A stretch of DNA of 64,000 nucleotides from Closterium sp. NIES-65 (taxonomy: Eukaryota; Streptophyta; Zygnematophyceae; Desmidiales; Closteriaceae): contig CANXME010001991.1 in the NCBI GenBank assembly GCA_948144175.1, positions 521,001 through 585,000 of the forward strand. Reading direction: 5' to 3'. Under the pieces are notes generated by a model, which saw only the letters and a list, made by a program, of their open reading frames with translations, had not been told where the DNA came from and made no database searches. This document shows, piece by piece, positions 5,001 to 54,581 of this stretch. The translations under genes were made by a program, and so were the position numbers. Each line of letters opens with the position of its first letter. Position 1 is the stretch's first letter.

Positions 5001-6163
5001 GGGGGGGGAACCGGCACAAGGAAGTCCGGGGGAGGGGGGAGGGAAGGAGTGGGGTAGGGGAAGAGACGGTAGAAGGGGACTGACTCGTCGAACGTGACGT
5101 CCTGGGAGGACAGAACACGACGAGAGGAGGGGTGGTAAAACTGCCACCCTGGGGCGTCAGTGGGGAAGCCAAGGAAGACACAGGGAGCAGCACGAGGGGA
5201 CAGCTTGTCCGCAGACAAGTCGCGGACAAACGCCCGAGATCCCCAGACACGGAACACAGACGCATCGCCAACCTTCCCCGTCCACAGCAAGGCTGGGGAC
5301 ATCGCAGGCCGAGAGACCCGGGGGTGAAGGTTGAGCTGATGCGCCGCGTACCTCACCGCAAACGGCCACAGAAAATGAGGGGCAGCCGCATGCATCATGG
5401 ACGTACGAGCAACATCCATGACCATGCCAATGCGGCGCTCAGCAATCCCATTTTGCTGTGGTGAGTCCGGAAGCGTGAAGGTCTGGCGGATCCCCCGTGC
5501 ACGACAGTAGTCCCGCAGAAGGCGAGAAGAGAACTCTCCGCCTCTGTCAGAGTGCAGACGCAGAACAGGAAAGTCCGAGCCGAAGCTCTGCCTGAGCTGG
5601 AGACGAGCCTCGCGGATCCAGTCGATCAGCACCTCAGTGACCGCACCCTTGCTGCGCAAGGGGAGGACTGTGGTGTAACGCGAGTAGTCGTCAACCACCA
5701 ACAGGAAGTAGCGCTCGTAACCCTGCCCACGGACGGGGGCTGGGCCCCACACATCCATGTGAAGCGTCTGCAGGGGAGCCTCTGTCGGGGGGAAGTGGGA
5801 GGAGTGAGGAGTAGCCCGGAGGCAACCCTCGACACAGGGGACACAGGAAGGTCCTGGCCCGGAGGGGAGAGGAGGGAGAGACTGGGGAAGACCAGAGACA
5901 AGGACACGGGAAGCCATGCTCCGAAGACGGGGCAAGGAGGGGTGGCCAAGACGGTGGTGCCACAGGAGAGTCTCGTGAGACAGGAGGCGACAAGAACAGG
6001 GGGCAGACTCAGGACCTGACCGGGACGCAGCAGCAAGTGCCTGACCAGACGCAGCCACCTGACCAGACGCAGGGACAGGAGGAGACTCAACGGTCAGGGT
6101 GTAGAGACTCGACCCCGGGGCAGGGTCGAGGCAGGGCCGAAAGGGGCGGCGACGGGGCCGCAA
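2084..6163 (-). CDS. CopB pol: integrase, reverse transcriptase, RNase H (gag and protease lost)
   Basis: One open frame of up to 1359 codons that begins inside the pre-integrase domain, so the true start is unknown. Domains in order are the HHCC zinc region (LLWHHRLGHPS, then CVPC), the integrase core with all three acids (HMDVWGP, HSDRGGEF, NGIAERRIG), an Ala/Gly/Glu/Pro repeat linker, reverse transcriptase with YVDD, and RNase H with HADASWADD, CEAEIYAG and YVDNKAM. The family makes a cDNA copy in a cytoplasmic particle and inserts it into the genome. Here all visible catalytic residues are intact, but there is no Gag, no protease and no matched LTR pair, so it could act only in trans. The TGA stop is the same as in CopC, CopD and the others. 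Confidence 0.85.
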   Translation of the reverse strand: MRPRRRPFRPCLDPAPGSSLYTLTVESPPVPASGQVAASGQALAAASRSGPESAPCSCRLLSHETLLWHHRLGHPSLPRLRSMASRVLVSGLPQSLPPLPSGPGPSCVPCVEGCLRATPHSSHFPPTEAPLQTLHMDVWGPAPVRGQGYERYFLLVVDDYSRYTTVLPLRSKGAVTEVLIDWIREARLQLRQSFGSDFPVLRLHSDRGGEFSSRLLRDYCRARGIRQTFTLPDSPQQNGIAERRIGMVMDVARTSMMHAAAPHFLWPFAVRYAAHQLNLHPRVSRPAMSPALLWTGKVGDASVFRVWGSRAFVRDLSADKLSPRAAPCVFLGFPTDAPGWQFYHPSSRRVLSSQDVTFDESVPFYRLFPYPTPSLPPPPDFLVPVPPPVDPLPPQVPAPSGVSQVDAADPVEVTGDSGAAAGAEPGGADSGGAVRGGAEPGGATAGGAGPEGATAEGAEPGGAEPGGAVPGVAGSGGAGSGAAEPGGAELGAAEPGGAASGAAEPGVSPAAASRREPLSPQELREWFARRWRRAAESGGAAGAGAGASSTVEGGGAAGPGAAGPAGPPGAGAAAGAGAEPTSIGPAAGGVGGAGAVAEGAGAVPAASGAAARPRPYFVPLLQQVLGLSPPVEGPPPVQSQSLLEPSSPLPAPSPYTGPTGGLAERREPASRPASPVRAARASGRSSRQRPPPVPGTHRMSLRPSTAPLRAPLSSPPESSLPALADPESDSLRAASPTVTRLLATVVTDPSFESTAASALVAELVDFAARCRLDYAASLVAESASVCPPSVGGECALGTDVLEDRQEELQCLAAASPHLASVLLAPEGDPDALDIPTPRSYAEAVEGPYSSQWQAAMDAEMASWKSTGTYVDAVPPPGANIVSGMWIFRVKRPPGSPPVFKARYVARGFSQRQGVDYFQTFSPTPKMTTLRVLLHIAAQRDYELHSLDFNTAFLQGSLHEEIWLRRPPGFTGTFPPGTQWSLRRPVYGLRQAPREWHDTLRTTLAALGFAPSTADPSLFLRTDTSLPPFYILVYVDDLVFATADTAGLAYVKSELLKRHTCTDLGELRSYLGLQITQDRARRTITLTQSHMVQQVLQRFGFTYSSPQATPLPTRHSLSALPSDEFVESSGPYAELVGCLMYLMTCTRPDLAYPLSILARYVAPGRHRPEHMAAAKRVLRYLCSTSGMGLVLGGRSPVVLTGHADASWADDQATQRSSQGYTFSLGSGSVSWRSTRSSSVLGSSCEAEIYAGAMDAQELRWLTYLLTDLGEPPRSPPVLYVDNKAMLALCREQRLEHRTKHIALRYFLARELQQRGQLRLAYVASEANTADVFTKALAPCDHQRFCTQLGLVPVLPHLLSS

Positions 6164-7344: not shown

Positions 7345-9015
7345 CGATCAGGAGGAGTTACAGTGTCTAGCGGCTGCTTCACCTCATCTCGCGTCTGTAC
7401 TGCTTGCCCCTGAGGGAGACCCGGATGCACTAGACATCCCGACTCCGCGTTCTTACGCGGAGGCTGTAGAGGGCCTTACTCCTCTCAGTGGCAGGCAGCT
7501 ATGGATGCAGAGATGGCTTCCTGGAAGTCCACGGGCACCTACGTTGACGCAGTTCCCCCTCCTGGGGCGAACATCGTCAGTGGCATGTGGATCTTCAGGG
7601 TGAAGCGGCCGCCGGGCTCTCCGCCTGTCTTCAAGGCGCGTTACGTCGCTCGTGGCTTCAGTCAGCGGCAGGGAGTTGACTACTTTCAGACCTTCTCTCC
7701 CACTCCGAAGATGACTACTCTTCGGGTGCTGCTGCACGTTGCCGCTCAGCGCGACTACGAGCTTCACTCTCTCGACTTCAGCACTGCGTTCCTGCAGGGT
7801 AGCCTGCACGAGGAGATCTGGCTGCGCCGTCCGCCTGGCTTCACTGGGACTTTCCCTCCTGGCACCCAGTGGAGCCTCCGACGGCCAGTCTACGGTCTCC
7901 GCCAGGCACCGCGTGAGTGGCACGACACACTGAGGACTACGCTTGCGGCTCTTGGGTTTGCTCCTTCCACTGCTGACCCGTCGCTGTTTCTTCGCACCGA
8001 CACTTCCTTGCCGCCGTTCTACATCCTCGTGTACGTCGAGGACTTGGTCTTTGCCACAGCGGACACTGCTGGACTCGCCTACGTGAAGTCCGAGCTGCTG
8101 AAGAGACACACGTGCACAGACCTGGGTGAACTGCGCAGCTACCTTGGCTTGCAGATCACTTGGGACAGAGCACGCCGCACCATTACCCTGACTCAGTCAC
8201 ACATGGTGCAGCAGGTCCTTCAGCGCTTCGGCTTCACGTACTCCTCGCCTCAGGCCACTCCTCTGCCTACTCGCCACTCGCTCTCAGCTCTGCCTTCGGA
8301 TGAGTCCGTAGAGTCGAGTGGCCCGTATGCAGAGCTTGTTGGCTGCCTCATGTACCTGATGACCTGCACACGACCTGACCTTGCATACCCTCTGAGCATC
8401 CTTGCACGCTATGTTGCTCCTGGGAGACACCGACCTGAGCACATGGCTGCAGCGAAGAGGGTATTGCGCTACCTGTGCAGTACGTCGGGCATGGGGCTAG
8501 TGCTTGGAGGGCGGAGTCCAGTGGTCCTTACGGGCCACGCGGACGCTTCTTGGGCTGACGACCAGGCTACGCAGCGGTCGTCACAGGGTTACACCTTCAG
8601 CCTTGGTTCCGGCTCTGTCTCGTGGCGGTCTACTCGCTCGTCTTCGGTTCTCGGCTCCAGTTGTGAGGCTGAGATCTACGCCGGGGCCATGGCTGCACAG
8701 GAGCTTCGCTGGCTCACCTACCTGCTGACTGACCTTGGAGAGCCGCCTCGTTCTCCTCCAGTGCTGTACGTAGACAACAAGGCCATGCTGGCCTTGTGTC
8801 CAGAGCAGCGTCTGGAGCACAGAACGAAGCACATTGCTCTTTGCTACTTCCTTGCTCGTGAGCTGCAGCAGCGTGGTCAGCTGCGACTTGCGTACGTGGC
8901 CTCTGAGGCCAACACTGCTGATGTGTTCACCAAGGCACTCGCGCCTTGTGACCATCAGCGCTTCTGTACCCAGCTGGGTCTTGTGCCTGTCTTGCCTCAC
9001 TTGCTCTCTTCCTGA
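7345..9015 (+). pseudogene. CopC reverse transcriptase and RNase H
   Basis: The frame covers the RT fingers and palm (MWIFRVKRPPGSPPVFKARY, LDFSTAFLQG) and RNase H (HADASWADD, CEAEIYAG, YVDNKAM), ending in TGA with the family C-terminus. An ATG-initiated stretch starts at 7501; 7345-7500 is in another frame, so a frameshift sits near 7480. The catalytic motif reads YVED instead of YVDD, replacing the first aspartate of the pair. This alone should abolish polymerisation. With the missing upstream half, it is a dead fragment. Confidence 0.85.
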
Positions 9016-22353: not shown

Positions 22354-23341
22354 GCTTTACCTCATCTCGTGTCCATGCTGCTTGCCCCTGAGGGAGACCC
22401 GGATGCACCAGACATCCCGACCCCGCGCTCCTCCGCAGAGGCGATAGAGGGTCTCTACTCCTCTCATTGGCAGACAGCCATAGACGCAGAGATGGCTTCC
22501 TAGAAGTCCACTGGCACCTACGTCAACGAGGTTCCCCCACCTGGGGCGAACATTGTCGATGGCATGTGGATTTTCAGGGCAAAGCGGCCGCCGGGTTCTC
22601 CGCCTGTCTTCAAGGCGTGTTACGTGGCTCGAGGCTTCACTCAGCGGCAGGGAGTTGACTACTTTCATACCTTCTCTCCCACCTCGAAGATGACCTTCTC
22701 TTCGTCGCTTAGCGTGACTACGAGCTTCACTCTCTTGACTTCAGCACAACCTTCCCACAGGGCAGCCTGCATGAGGAGATCTGGCTGCGCCGCCCACGTG
22801 GCTCACTGGGTCGTTTCCTCCTGGTGGTACCCAGTGGAGCCTCCGGCAGCCAGTCTATGGTCTCTGCCAGGCCACGCGTGAGTGGCACGACACACTGAGG
22901 ACTACGCTTGCGGCTCTTGGGTTTGCTCCTTCCACTGTTGACCAGTGGCTGTTTCTCCACACCGACACTACCCTGCCGCCGTTCTACATCCCCGTGTACG
23001 TCGACGACTTGGTTTTTGCTACTGCTGACACTGCAGGACTGGCCCACGTAAAGTCGGAGCTGAAGACGAGACACACGTGCACAGACCTGGGTGAGCTGCG
23101 TAGCTATCTTGGCTTGCAGATCACTCGGAAAAGAGCACGGCGCACCATTACATTGACTCAGTCACACATGGTGGAGCAGGTCCTTCAGCGCTTCAAGTTC
23201 ACGTACTCCTCGCCTCAGGCCACTCCTCTGTCTACTCGCCACTCGCTCTCAGCTCTGCCTTTGGATGAGTCTATAGAGCCGAGTGGCTTGTACCCAGAGC
23301 TTGTGAGCTGCCTCATGTACTTGATGACCTGCACTCGACCT

Positions 23342-23716
23342 TGTCAGAATCCCAACCACTAGACCATTGGGATAAAAGGGCTTGTTTCAGTAGCGGGTCT
23401 GTGCGCCCATAACCCCCCAGGCGAACGCGCCTGTAACCCTCTCCAGGATCAATCGGGCATCCACAGTGCAGATCTACTGACACCCCCCCACACTGGGAGG
23501 TCCAGGACTAAGCACAACGTCAACGGCCTACATGTGCATACACCGGGAATCGAACCCGAGACCGCCCTGATACCATGTCAGAATCCCAACCACTAGACCA
23601 TTGGGATAAAAGGGCTTGTTTCAGTAGCGGGTCAGTGCGCCCATAACCCCCCAAGCGAACGCGCCTGTAACCCTCTCCAGGATCAATCGGGCATCCACAG
23701 TGCAGATCTACTGACA
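23342..23716 (-). mobile_element. trTRIM-1, 375 bp LTR element with tRNA-like promoter
   Basis: Two 141 bp LTRs (23342-23482 and 23576-23716, 139 of 141 identical) flank a 93 bp interior. Exact target duplication gacct at 23337-23341 and 23717-23721. On the minus strand the interior opens with PBS TGGTATCAGGGCGG and closes with purine tract GTGTGGGGGGG. Box A TGGTCTAGTGG lies in the LTR end (23590-23600) and box B GGTTCGATTCC in the interior (23546-23556). They span 55 nt, the distance found in real tRNA genes. No protein can be encoded. Its enzymes must come from elsewhere. Confidence 0.9.
23546..23606 (-). promoter_or_regulatory. tRNA-like Pol III promoter across LTR/PBS junction
   Basis: Minus strand: a D-arm-like TGGTCTAGTGGTTGGGA, an anticodon-like stem TCTGA/TCAGG closing a 7 nt loop CATGGTA, and a T-arm TCGGG-TTCGATT-CCCGG. 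The LTR ends after the CA of that loop and the PBS begins at its TGG. No matching 3' acceptor strand exists, so it is a promoter relic or mimic and not a tRNA gene. Confidence 0.7.
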
Positions 23717-24578
23717 GACCTGACCTGGCATACCCTCTTAGCATCCTGGCACGCTATGTTGCTCCTGGGAGACACCGACCAGAGCACATGGATGCAGCTA
23801 AGAGGGTGTTGCGCTACCTGTGGAGTACGTCGGGCATGGGGCTCGTACTTGGAGGGTGGGCTCGAGTTGTCCTCACTGGTCACGCAGACGCTTCTTCGGT
23901 TGACGACTTGGCTACGCAGCGGTCGTCACAGGGTTACACCTTCAGCCTTGGCTCCGGCTCTTTTTCGTGGCGGTCTACCTGCTCGTCTTCTATTCTCAGC
24001 TTTAGTTGTGAGGCTGAGATCTACGCTGGGGCCATGGCTGCACAGGAGTTACGATGGCTCCCCTACCTGCTGACCGACTTGGGAGAGGCGCCTCGTTCTC
24101 CTTCAGTTCTGTACGTCAACAACAAGGCCATGCTTGCCTTGTGTCCGGAGCACAGACTGGAGCAAAGAACGAAGCACATTGCTCTGCGCTACTTCCTTGC
24201 TCGAGAGTTGCAGCAGCGTGGTCAGCTTCGTCTTGCTTACGTGGCCACTCGGGCCAACACTGCTGATATCTTTACCAAGGCACTTCAGCCTTGTGATCAT
24301 CAGCGTTTTTGTACTATGTTAGGTCTTGTGCCTACCTGGCCTCACTTGCTGACCTCTTGACTTTGCTTGTTCTGTGGTCTATATATACCTGCACCTGAAT
24401 GCTTACCCTTGCTAGGTTGAGATCACTGTCTTGCTTGTTCACCTTGATTTATGACCCTGCATGTGAACTGGCCTTGTGGCCTTGTACTTGTGCTCACAAT
24501 GCGTGGTGACGTTGTGATCCACCTTGAGCTTGACCTTGCCTTGTTCTCTTGCTTGACCCCACTTTGCCTATGGGGGTG

Positions 24579-24701
24579 TGTCAGAACTATATTGTAGGCT
24601 GTAGTGGGGCACTCCTAATGGGGTACAGTATTGTTAGGTTTTGCCTATACAAACCTTGTACTGTCCTGTTTCTAGTCATTCTCGTTTCCTACTTTGTGAC
24701 A
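24579..24701 (+). repeat. CopE 3' LTR
   Basis: 123 bp, preceded by cctatgggggtg. Followed by target duplication tgacc. Confidence 0.9.
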
Positions 24702-24706
24702 TGACC

Positions 24707-25350
24707 TCGCCCGAACTGGACAAACTAAGGAAGCAACTGGATTACCTGCTCGAGAAGGAGTTCATTCGCCCGAGTTCGTCACCTTTCGCAGCACCAATAC
24801 TGTTCACACCGAATAAGGATGAGGGTTTTCGCATGTGCATCGACTACCGCACACTGAACAGGGTTTTTATCATGTCCCGTTACCCCATCCCACGAGCCGA
24901 CGAACTGATCGACCAACTGCGCATAGCCAAGGTTTTCTCGAAAATCGACCTTCGAGGAGGCTACCACCAAATCTGAGTCAACCCACCCGACTGCCCAAAT
25001 ACAGCCTTCTGAACACACTACGGATCCTTCGAATAAACCGTCATGCCGTTCGGACTGACCAACGCCCCGCCACTTTTCGAATGACCATGAATGAAGCCTT
25101 CCGCTAGCTTTTAGATAAGTGCGTCATCGTGTATCTCATCGACATACTGATATACAGCCCAGACAGAGCACAGCACCTGCAGGACATTGTAGCAGTTTTT
25201 AAAATACTGAGTGAGAACCGCCTATTATCAAAAGCCTCTAAGTGTGAGTTTTTACAGGACAAACTGGAGTTTTTGGGACACATTTTTTCAGGTGAAGGAG
25301 TGGAAATAGACCCGAAGAAGTTCGCGACAATTCAAGTGCGGCACGCGCCG
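24707..25350 (+). pseudogene. GypG reverse transcriptase
   Basis: Continues the GypG RT after Cop[46 protein letters not shown], then MPFGLTNAP (frame shifted), ILSENRLLSKASKCEF and LEFLGHIFSGEGV. The catalytic YLDD-type motif reads YLID, losing its first Asp. Several stops (for example at 24974-24976) look like CGA to TGA changes. The family role would be cDNA synthesis; this copy is dead. Confidence 0.85.
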
Positions 25351-25814
25351 ACAAACTTAACCGAGTTGCAGAGCTTTTGGGGGTTCGTCAACTACGTGCG
25401 CCGGTTCGTCCCTGACATGGCAAAGTTGACTGCTCCGTTGACCGACCTGCTGAGAAAGGGGGTTGAGTACACGTGGGGGGAGAAAGAACGTGCTGCATTC
25501 TCGGCCCTCAAACAAATTTTGTGCTTGCCGCCCGTGCTTCACATCGCAGATCCGCCCTGTCCGTTCGAGCTCGTCACCGACGCTAGCGACATCGCCGTGG
25601 GAGCAGTACTGTTGCAGGACTTTGAGAACGGCCTCTAGCCAATCGCATACGAGTCCCGTAAGCTTCACCCACCCGAACACAACTATCCAATATACGACTG
25701 CGAGACACTGGCGATCTTGCACACGTTCAAGATGTGGCGATGTTACCTCACGAGAGCACACGTGACAATACGGACAGACCACCAATCACTAAAGTATCTA
25801 CGTGCCCAACCGAA
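25350..25814 (+). pseudogene. GypG RT connection and RNase H, first part
   Basis: Reads LTELQSFWGFVNYVRRFVPD, LLRKGVEYTWGEKERAAF, then FELVTDASDIAVGAVLLQD, the start of gypsy RNase H with its first Asp. TAG at 25636-25638 interrupts it. The frame then leads to the trTRIM array inserted at 25815-25819 (duplication tctca). Confidence 0.8.
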
Positions 25815-25819
25815 TCTCA

Positions 25820-26373
25820 TGTCAGAATCCCAACCTCTAGACCATTGGGATAAAAGGGCTTGTTTGTATAGCGGGTGAGTGCGCCCATAACCCCCCAGGC
25901 CGACGTGCCTGTAACCCTTCCCTAGGATCAATCGGGGATCACCAGTGGACTTTTGACACCCCCCCGCACTGGGATGCCAGAAGTGCACACACCGGGTTTC
26001 GAGCCCGAGACCTTCGCTCTGATACAGTGTCAGAATCCCAACCACTAGACCATTGGGATAAAATGGCTTGTTAAGTAGCGGGTTAGTGCGCCCATAACCC
26101 CCCAGGACAACGAGCCTGTAACCCTTCCCTAGGATCAATTGGGGATCACCAGTGGACCTCCGACACCCCCCCGCAATGGGATGCCCGAAGTGCACACACT
26201 GGGATTCGAACCCGTGACCTTCGCTCTGATACCATGTCAGAATCCCAATCACTAGACCATTGGGATAAAAGGGCTTGTTTGTATAGCGGGTGAGTGCGCC
26301 CATAACCCGCCAGGCTGACGTGCCTGTAACCCTTCCCTAGGATCAAGCGAGGATCACCAGTGGACTTCTGACA
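25820..26373 (-). mobile_element. trTRIM tandem array (three LTRs, two interiors)
   Basis: LTRs at 25820-25958, 26028-26165 and 26235-26373 separated by interiors of about 70 bp. A single exact target duplication tctca (25815-25819, 26374-26378) encloses all, so it is one locus that grew by LTR-LTR recombination or arrived as a dimer. The interior next to the third LTR has PBS TGGTATCAGAGCGAAGG and box B GGTTCGAATCC (26202-26212). The anticodon-like stem there is TCTGA/TCAGA, fully paired. The other interior has decayed PBS and box B. Confidence 0.9.
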
Positions 26374-26378
26374 TCTCA

Positions 26379-26665
26379 ACCTGCGACAGATCCGCTGGTT
26401 GGACTATCTGGAGTCCAACTTTCACTACACAGTCACGTACAAAAAAGGCGCATCAAATATCGCCGACGCACTCATACGCCCCACCGCCCAACCTTCATGC
26501 CATCCTACTCGCCCAAAACGACTCACTACTAACAGGCCTATTCACCCACGGATACCGCACCGACCCATTTTTCACGACCTGAAATTCACAGCAACTGAAA
26601 GGGAATCTGTTACGTAAAAATAGGCACCAACCGCATCTGGGTACGCGCGTACTCACTACTCAGGG
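26379..26665 (+). pseudogene. GypG RNase H end and integrase approach
   Basis: Reads IRWLDYLESNFHYTVTYKKG and SNIADAL, the end of gypsy RNase H (the D of ADAL is present). The following 150 bp is the spacer toward the integrase zinc domain. TRIM-B3 inserted at 26666-26670 (duplication agtta). Confidence 0.75.
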
Positions 26666-53379: not shown

Positions 53380-53816
53380 ATCGTGTCGCGACCTTTCTAG
53401 CAATATGCTGCACGCCTTTATCGGCCAACGTTGACCGAGCCTCTCCGTTAATGGATGTCGCTCATCTCTGTCAGTAGATCTGCACTGTGGATGCCCGATT
53501 GATCCTGGAGAGGGTTACAGGCGCGTTCGCCTGGGGGGTTATGGGCGCACTGACCCGCTACTGAAACAAGCCCTTTTATCCCAATGGTCTAGTGGTTGGG
53601 ATTCTGACAATCTCCTCCTCCCGAATATATCCACACGGTTTTTAGCGTGTTTCTTCTCTCCTCCTACCCTCCCACGTTAAGTGTCCGCTACGGTGCAATT
53701 TCGGCAGCCCTTCGGGAGGGATGGAAGCTATTTAGCTTCCACCAAGGTATTATGGTCCAATCCCTTTAGTAGCTCCTATTCCAACCGTTTGCTAGGCTTT
53801 CCTTGCACTGACACCA
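53380..53816 (-). other. CopX leader with embedded solo micro-LTR
   Basis: Leader between PBS and the lost gag. Contains the trTRIM solo LTR at 53469-53609. No gene. Confidence 0.55.
53469..53609 (+). mobile_element. trTRIM solo LTR 1
   Basis: 141 bp, TGTCAGTAGATC to GGATTCTGACA, exact target duplication atctc (53464-53468, 53610-53614). It carries the box A half (tggtctagtgg) but no box B, as expected after LTR-LTR recombination. Nearly identical to the trTRIM-1 LTR. Confidence 0.9.
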
Positions 53817-54439: not shown

Positions 54440-54581
54440 TGTCACTAGATCTGCACTGTAGATGCCCGATTGATCATAGGGGGGGTTACAGGCGAGTTCG
54501 TCTGGGGGGTTATGGGCGCACAAACCCGCAACACAAACACGCCCTTTTATCCCAATAGTTTAAGTGGTTGGGATTCTGACA
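54440..54581 (+). mobile_element. trTRIM solo LTR 2
   Basis: 142 bp, exact target duplication ggtat (54435-54439, 54582-54586). More diverged: the box A region reads tagtttaagtgg. Confidence 0.9.

Follow-up and report, generated by a model that had tools for sequence, protein, structure and literature searches.

The window (the whole 64,000-nt stretch of DNA that was analysed) contains a 375-bp element of Closterium sp. NIES-65 that is a genuine TRIM, a short non-autonomous LTR retrotransposon, with the two boxes of a tRNA-type promoter on either side of the border between its 5' LTR and its primer-binding site (PBS). Judging from the sequence, the genomic RNA of this TRIM is probably made by RNA polymerase III (Pol III) from a type-2 (tRNA-type) promoter that is split by the LTR/PBS border. 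The initial annotation had proposed a promoter pair straddling this border, and as a sequence pair, kept in very many copies, it is supported by the results below.

The TRIM element and its box pair

The features of the element and of its relatives in the window are as follows.

23342–23716, minus strand: whole TRIM, 375 bp, lying within Copia-like coding sequence (direct repeats and target-site duplication, TSD)
23337–23341, unstranded: left copy of the TSD GACCT (flank comparison)
23717–23721, unstranded: right copy of the TSD GACCT (flank comparison)
23576–23716, minus strand: 5' LTR, 141 bp, TGTCAG...CTGACA (direct repeats)
23615–23618, minus strand: CAAG, candidate transcription start region
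23608–23611, minus strand: TTTT, the sole TTTT in the unit and a candidate Pol III terminator, putatively acting in the 3' LTR
23583–23607, minus strand: hairpin ATCCCAA...TTGGGAT with box A in its loop (compensatory changes)
23590–23600, minus strand: box A TGGTCTAGTGG in the 5' LTR (motif search)
23483–23575, minus strand: interior, 93 bp, between the LTRs and below coding size for the usual proteins
23564–23575, minus strand: PBS TGGTATCAGGGC, complementary to the 3' end of initiator tRNA-Met (iMet), with one mismatch in the window copy
23546–23556, minus strand: box B GGTTCGATTCC in the interior (motif search)
23483–23491, minus strand: PPT GTGGGGGGG, a G-rich polypurine tract at the interior end
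23342–23482, minus strand: 3' LTR, with box A and without box B downstream
25820–26373, minus strand: second copy, subfamily B, a tandem LTR-interior-LTR-interior-LTR with TSD TCTCA (plus strand)
53469–53609, plus strand: solo LTR, TSD ATCTC, box A only
54440–54581, plus strand: older solo LTR, 89% identical, TSD GGTAT, box A altered

The assignment to the TRIMs is based on two LTRs, a total length below 1000 bp (375 bp; LTR and interior of 141 + 93 bp) and the lack of any protein for the element's own movement, together with a PBS and a PPT at the ends of the interior, the PBS pairing with the 3' end of the host's own iMet. Integration is marked by a 5-bp TSD, which was perfect by eye in 25 of the 28 loci L001–L028 (the exceptions were L010, L020, and L025; that of L006 includes the first LTR base). 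The LTR/PBS border is exact, with CTGACA closing the LTR at 23576 and the PBS occupying 23575–23564. When the surroundings were compared with other Copia-type copies in the window, the Copia similarity stopped at 23341 and started again at 23711. Between 1759 and 61541, such Copia-type copies, related to one another and lying in either orientation, make up much of the window, and their open frames contain long stretches rich in Gly and Ala. Among the 120 best of 8000 matches, the protein at 7501–9012 was up to 98% identical to proteins of Closterium sp. NIES-53, NIES-54, NIES-64, NIES-65, Naga37s-1, and Yama58-4. A scan of viral contigs for the LTR end gave 0 matches.

In the window copy, box A and box B are 44 nt apart from start to start and span 55 nt in total. 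The motif positions thus confirm the earlier description of a minus-strand box A in the LTR and a box B in the interior spanning 55 nt; the range then given, 23546–23606, covers both boxes and extends 6 nt beyond box A. The claim that this spacing is that of true tRNA genes also holds, since host tRNA genes showed spacings of 44 (three tRNA-Glu), 43 (one iMet), and 45 (one tRNA-Ile). The 20-nt context of box A occurred at 6 sites in the window with ≤3 mismatches (0.01 expected), and perfect GGTTCGANNCC at two sites only, 23546 and 26202, both within the Closterium TRIM family. Box B by itself was not enriched in the window at ≤1 mismatch (8 found, 14.6 expected).

Copies of the pair and their conservation

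A search of the 874-Mb genome for exact box A followed by exact box B with a 20–50-nt gap (spacing 31–61) gave 3293 matches, and its control gave 0. Among the first 100 listed of these, inspected by eye, 99 belonged to the TRIM family and one was a tRNA-Gly-like gene with a spacing of 48. Conservation of the spacing in other copies had been chosen beforehand as the test that could refute the promoter pair, and in these 100 the spacing was conserved at 44–48 (44 in 53, 47 in 36, 48 in 8, 45 in 2, and 46 in 1). The tRNA-Gly-like gene (G000:C9:125447-125505) has boxes identical to those of the TRIM and an odd anticodon region. A 25-nt exact match to the LTR end including box A was found at 5855 places in the genome (control, 0).

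For a sample picked independently of the boxes, we took the first 60 listed of the 4153 genomic matches to the junction CTGACATGGTATCAG, which joins the LTR end to the PBS (reversed control, 2). Box A was present in 41 of the 60 (36 exact and 5 with one mismatch to TGGTCTAGTGG), and the other 19 differed from TGGTCTAGTGG by 5–7 mismatches, which makes the two classes clear-cut; those 19 had 2–4 mismatches to the general box A consensus. The 41 junctions with box A had box B in exact form in 31 cases and with one mismatch in 8, whereas L087 had two mismatches and L116 had no box B there; 39 of the 41 thus carried box B at ≤1 mismatch, at a spacing of 44 (25) or 47 (14). Box B at this threshold was found in none of the 16 non-chimeric junctions without box A, where the best matches had 2 (11), 3 (4), or 4 (1) mismatches. 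The remaining three, L086, L103, and L114, have an exact box B without box A because a foreign LTR adjoins a TRIM interior. A looser box B criterion of ≤2 mismatches was dropped, because chance alone brings 11 of the 16 unrelated LTR elements to 2 mismatches, mostly at +12.

A second set was chosen by similarity and comprises 57 LTR + interior units, 30 of subfamily A and 27 of subfamily B, taken from the window and from retrieved loci after removal of the one incomplete unit among 58; consisting mostly of top matches to the two window copies, it is skewed to similar copies. With TRGYNNARNGG and GGTTCRANNCC as the consensus sequences, box A was exact in 52 of these 57 units and box B in 48, with one mismatch in the other 9. 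Besides the window copy, 27 more near-identical copies of 374–376 bp were found, and a strict scan for the pair in 291 kb, including loci fetched as TRIM matches, found 10 places, all of them TRIMs and the window copy twice. Full TRIM copies were present in two of twenty arbitrary 10-kb stretches (L034 and L038); in L038, box A is one base short, which counts against the Pol III model. The loci L155–L158 hold a TRIM variant whose LTR ends in TGAGA instead of TGACA; 5-bp TSDs are visible in their flanks, which suggests that LTRs lacking the usual CA terminus can integrate. An extra C was seen in the PBS of L155 and of several other listed box-pair matches.

The majority sequences of the two subfamilies, A and B, share an identical 57-nt block that runs from the CAA region across box A, the LTR end, and the PBS. 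A 3-nt insertion follows, beyond which box B is again the same in both apart from its free N; U3 and the distal interior differ. Leaving aside the LTR end, which was fixed by the search pattern, no LTR segment varied less than box A, whose mean variability across the 41 sampled LTRs was 0.011; 0 of 82 U3 windows of 11 columns were as low (median, 0.073). Within subfamily A, box B was more variable (0.041) than U3 (0.026–0.029), which counts against the Pol III model. In 40 copies, the TTC (positions 3–5) and TC (positions 9–10) of box B were invariant and position 8, an N in the consensus, was the freest.

The proposed split promoter and competing explanations

If the promoter is split in this way, TFIIIC would bind a box pair that is complete only where an LTR adjoins the interior. 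Pol III would start in the 5' LTR close to CAAG, approximately 16–20 nt upstream of box A, read through the PBS, box B, the interior, and the 3' U3, and stop at the TTTT of the 3' LTR, just upstream of that LTR's box A. The stretch from the start to TTTT would give a short R of approximately 10 nt for the first strand transfer, reverse transcription would be primed by iMet, and another iMet-primed LTR element (families X and Y are candidates) would provide the reverse transcriptase and the integrase in trans. Neither a solo LTR nor a 3' LTR would possess a complete promoter, and with a split pair only an intact copy should switch itself on. To the full form of this proposal we give slightly less than an even chance: a self-limiting promoter in which TFIIIC would need both the box A of the LTR and the box B of the interior, so that activity is confined to the 5' LTR of intact copies and both 3' and solo LTRs stay silent, with the start and TTTT setting the R of approximately 10 nt and the PBS occupying the place of the tRNA anticodon arm.

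CAAG was found 15–18 nt upstream of box A in 34 of the 41 sampled copies, and TTTT 8–11 nt upstream in 39 of the 41 sampled LTRs and just upstream in 56 of the 57 similarity-chosen units. Passages of PMC11700998 describe a CAA start triplet as often present upstream of plant tRNA genes and T-runs of at least four downstream. After the host tRNA genes, the first T-run (at least 4, within 60 nt) was exactly T4 in 14 of 20. Several observations count against the proposal: a CAA lay ≤20 nt upstream in just 8 of the 20 host tRNA genes, TTTT was missing in 2 of the 41 sampled LTRs and in both LTRs of L161, and a TTTT 8–11 nt upstream of box A could terminate transcripts early. The absence of any other TTTT is weak evidence because AAAA is also scarce (1 of 57 units).

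It is rather unlikely, though far from negligible, that the conserved stretch is instead an RNA structure around the U5–PBS junction of a Pol II transcript (from the LTR or by read-through), folded for primer placement or packaging, with the boxes as by-products. The hairpin around box A covaries, with four double-change cells at two pairs; shuffled alignments reached four cells in 0 of 500 and two pairs in 22 of 500, figures that take no account of relatedness, and one double change, common to three copies, may have arisen only once. A structural role, alone or in addition to the promoter, is kept in play mainly by this hairpin. The flanks of the boxes are also as conserved as the boxes themselves, 0 of 35 of these other core columns differing between the subfamilies (p = 0.004), and the foreign-LTR chimeras (3 of 60) show that the same interior exists without box A. 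On the other hand, box B is conserved in the pattern expected from the TFIIIC consensus, down to the unconstrained N at position 8, and not in that of an RNA stem: the T-arm was paired in 90.8% of cells, without compensatory change. The D-stem of a tRNA fold likewise showed no compensatory change. Folding of 74-nt and 79-nt stretches gave z-scores against shuffles of −0.19 and −0.11, which favour neither reading. In addition, 16 of the 60 junctions have the same LTR end and PBS start without box A or box B within one mismatch, and TATAWA was absent from all 41 TRIM LTRs, both of which argue against this reading, although TATAWA was also rare in the same stretch of the other sampled LTRs (2 of 19).

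The box pair might also bind TFIIIC without any Pol III transcription, serving as an insulator or in nuclear positioning or integration. We regard this as improbable. It shares the sequence evidence of the promoter reading (39 of 41 junctions and 3293 pairs), but it leaves unexplained, as a matter of argument, both the placement of the pair relative to the candidate start, the candidate terminator, and the PBS, and the origin of the genomic RNA. Still less probable is that a single fortuitous sequence has been inherited without function. Because all copies go back to a common ancestor, their number does not in itself count as independent evidence, and the comparison of the subfamilies restricted to the boxes was not significant (1 of 22 box columns differing versus 19 of 111 elsewhere, p = 0.11). 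However, the wider core is kept between subfamilies that differ elsewhere, and, measured from TTTT to the 3' arm of the hairpin, it shows the lowest variability along the LTR among the 41 LTRs of the junction sample (0.015 versus a U3 window minimum of 0.030).

ARAGORN and Rfam reported no tRNA at the TRIM boxes, which counts against the Pol III model; a tRNA gene is therefore rejected, and the boxes are better described as a promoter-like pair. In sense alignments of the window copy to host tRNA-Glu, only 7 of 2000 shuffles were as good for the LTR half and 1 of 2000 for the half following the PBS; the latter half also had some sense likeness to iMet (23 of 2000). Under an extended complementarity to the primer, such as occurs in Ty1 and Ty3, the D and T arms of iMet would be the pairing partners of the box-like stretches, and T arms are quasi-palindromic, so that the complement of a T arm looks like box B; nevertheless, this explanation is hardly credible, as box B differs from the complement of the iMet T arm and neither half was clearly above shuffles when compared with the complement of the host iMet gene (905 and 255 of 2000 shuffles as good; the complement used lacked the discriminator base, which is part of the PBS, and the PBS was excluded from this comparison). 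The likeness to tRNA-Glu in the sense direction and the poor scores against the primer complement indicate that the pair is tRNA-like rather than an extended primer site, and extended pairing is unsupported by the shuffle comparison. An Rfam tRNA search of the host genome gave 63 scored genes, many with identical scores on small contigs, and the host tRNA genes were therefore located with DNA probes. The genes with the same score recur often on G000 contigs such as C113, C155, C241, C1956, and C2210, which suggests that these contigs are organellar or contaminant. ARAGORN found 0 genes in the twenty 10-kb host stretches.

Related elements and chimeras

The initial annotation knew of no described tRNA-type counterpart to Cassandra. 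This was wrong in kind, as Helenus and Ajax are TRIMs with tRNA-like or 5S-like sequences in their LTRs (Kojima 2024, PMC10886601); an excerpt of a 2026 meeting report mentions both. In Helenus, both boxes of the tRNA-like sequence are described inside the LTR, transcription driven by Pol III is proposed, and Selaginella moellendorffii is the sole plant listed (PMC10886601). The Closterium element resembles Helenus in being a short TRIM with tRNA-type boxes A and B, a PBS, and a PPT, in its 5-bp TSD, as in fungal and plant Helenus, and in its tandem arrays, which are reported for one zebrafish family (PMC10886601). As for likeness to a tRNA gene beyond the two boxes, both halves of the window copy resemble tRNA-Glu above shuffles, but ARAGORN and Rfam found no tRNA. 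It differs from Helenus as described in that the Closterium LTR holds box A alone and the interior holds box B (39 of the 41 sampled copies with box A). A split across the LTR/PBS border is undescribed in the main text of Kojima 2024 (PMC10886601) and appears to be a new variant. For a split tRNA-type promoter, or for TRIMs in Closterium or the Zygnematophyceae, nothing relevant was found in the open-licence literature, which does not prove absence from print.

The analogy with Cassandra that had been drawn earlier is supported. Both are TRIMs with a Pol III-type promoter, both form tandem LTR-interior arrays (for Cassandra, in a portion of PMC7215508; such arrays also appear in part of a plant TRIM survey, PMC4717578), and the proposed R of approximately 10 nt is comparable to the short terminal duplication of Cassandra RNA, 18 bp according to PMC10886601. 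The promoter of Cassandra, in contrast, is of the 5S type and lies entirely within the LTR. No Rfam match of any kind, including to 5S rRNA, the sequence that defines Cassandra LTRs, reached the gathering score in the window, and at E values up to 10 the interval 23340–26400 gave one unrelated weak match only. SMART and ordinary TRIMs are alike in size and structure but have no Pol III-type promoter in the accounts found; a further likeness concerns SMART, for which PMC10886601 describes a putative partner with another LTR. How the dependence of TRIMs is maintained is not known, and no partner is indicated for Cassandra (Kojima 2024, PMC10886601).

A tRNA-type internal promoter is likewise found in tRNA-derived SINEs. 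These have no LTR, PBS, or PPT and move by target-primed reverse transcription, and membership in this group is ruled out for the Closterium element by its LTRs, PBS, PPT, and 5-bp TSD. If the split promoter is real, LTR elements driven by Pol III extend to charophyte algae, close relatives of the land plants, and include a promoter that is complete only where LTR meets interior, whereas Cassandra and Helenus are described with a promoter in each LTR.

In the three sampled junctions that combine a foreign LTR with a TRIM interior (L086, L103, and L114), the joins fall at the LTR/PBS border, the PBS being shared with other LTR elements. Such joining exactly at the shared PBS points to copying together with other LTR elements. 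The simplest account would be that a TRIM and a different iMet-primed element shared a particle and underwent second-strand transfer with each other, which would make families X and Y helpers or, at a minimum, co-packaged elements. L129 consists of LTR X, a TRIM interior, and a TRIM LTR, with GTATC flanking both sides as its own TSD, whereas the chimera L130 showed no adjacent TSD. On the reverse strand of L131, at about 509–1200, LTR Y is followed by two TRIM interior-LTR units and then by a Y-type PBS and interior start, which match those following LTR Y in L074 and L122.
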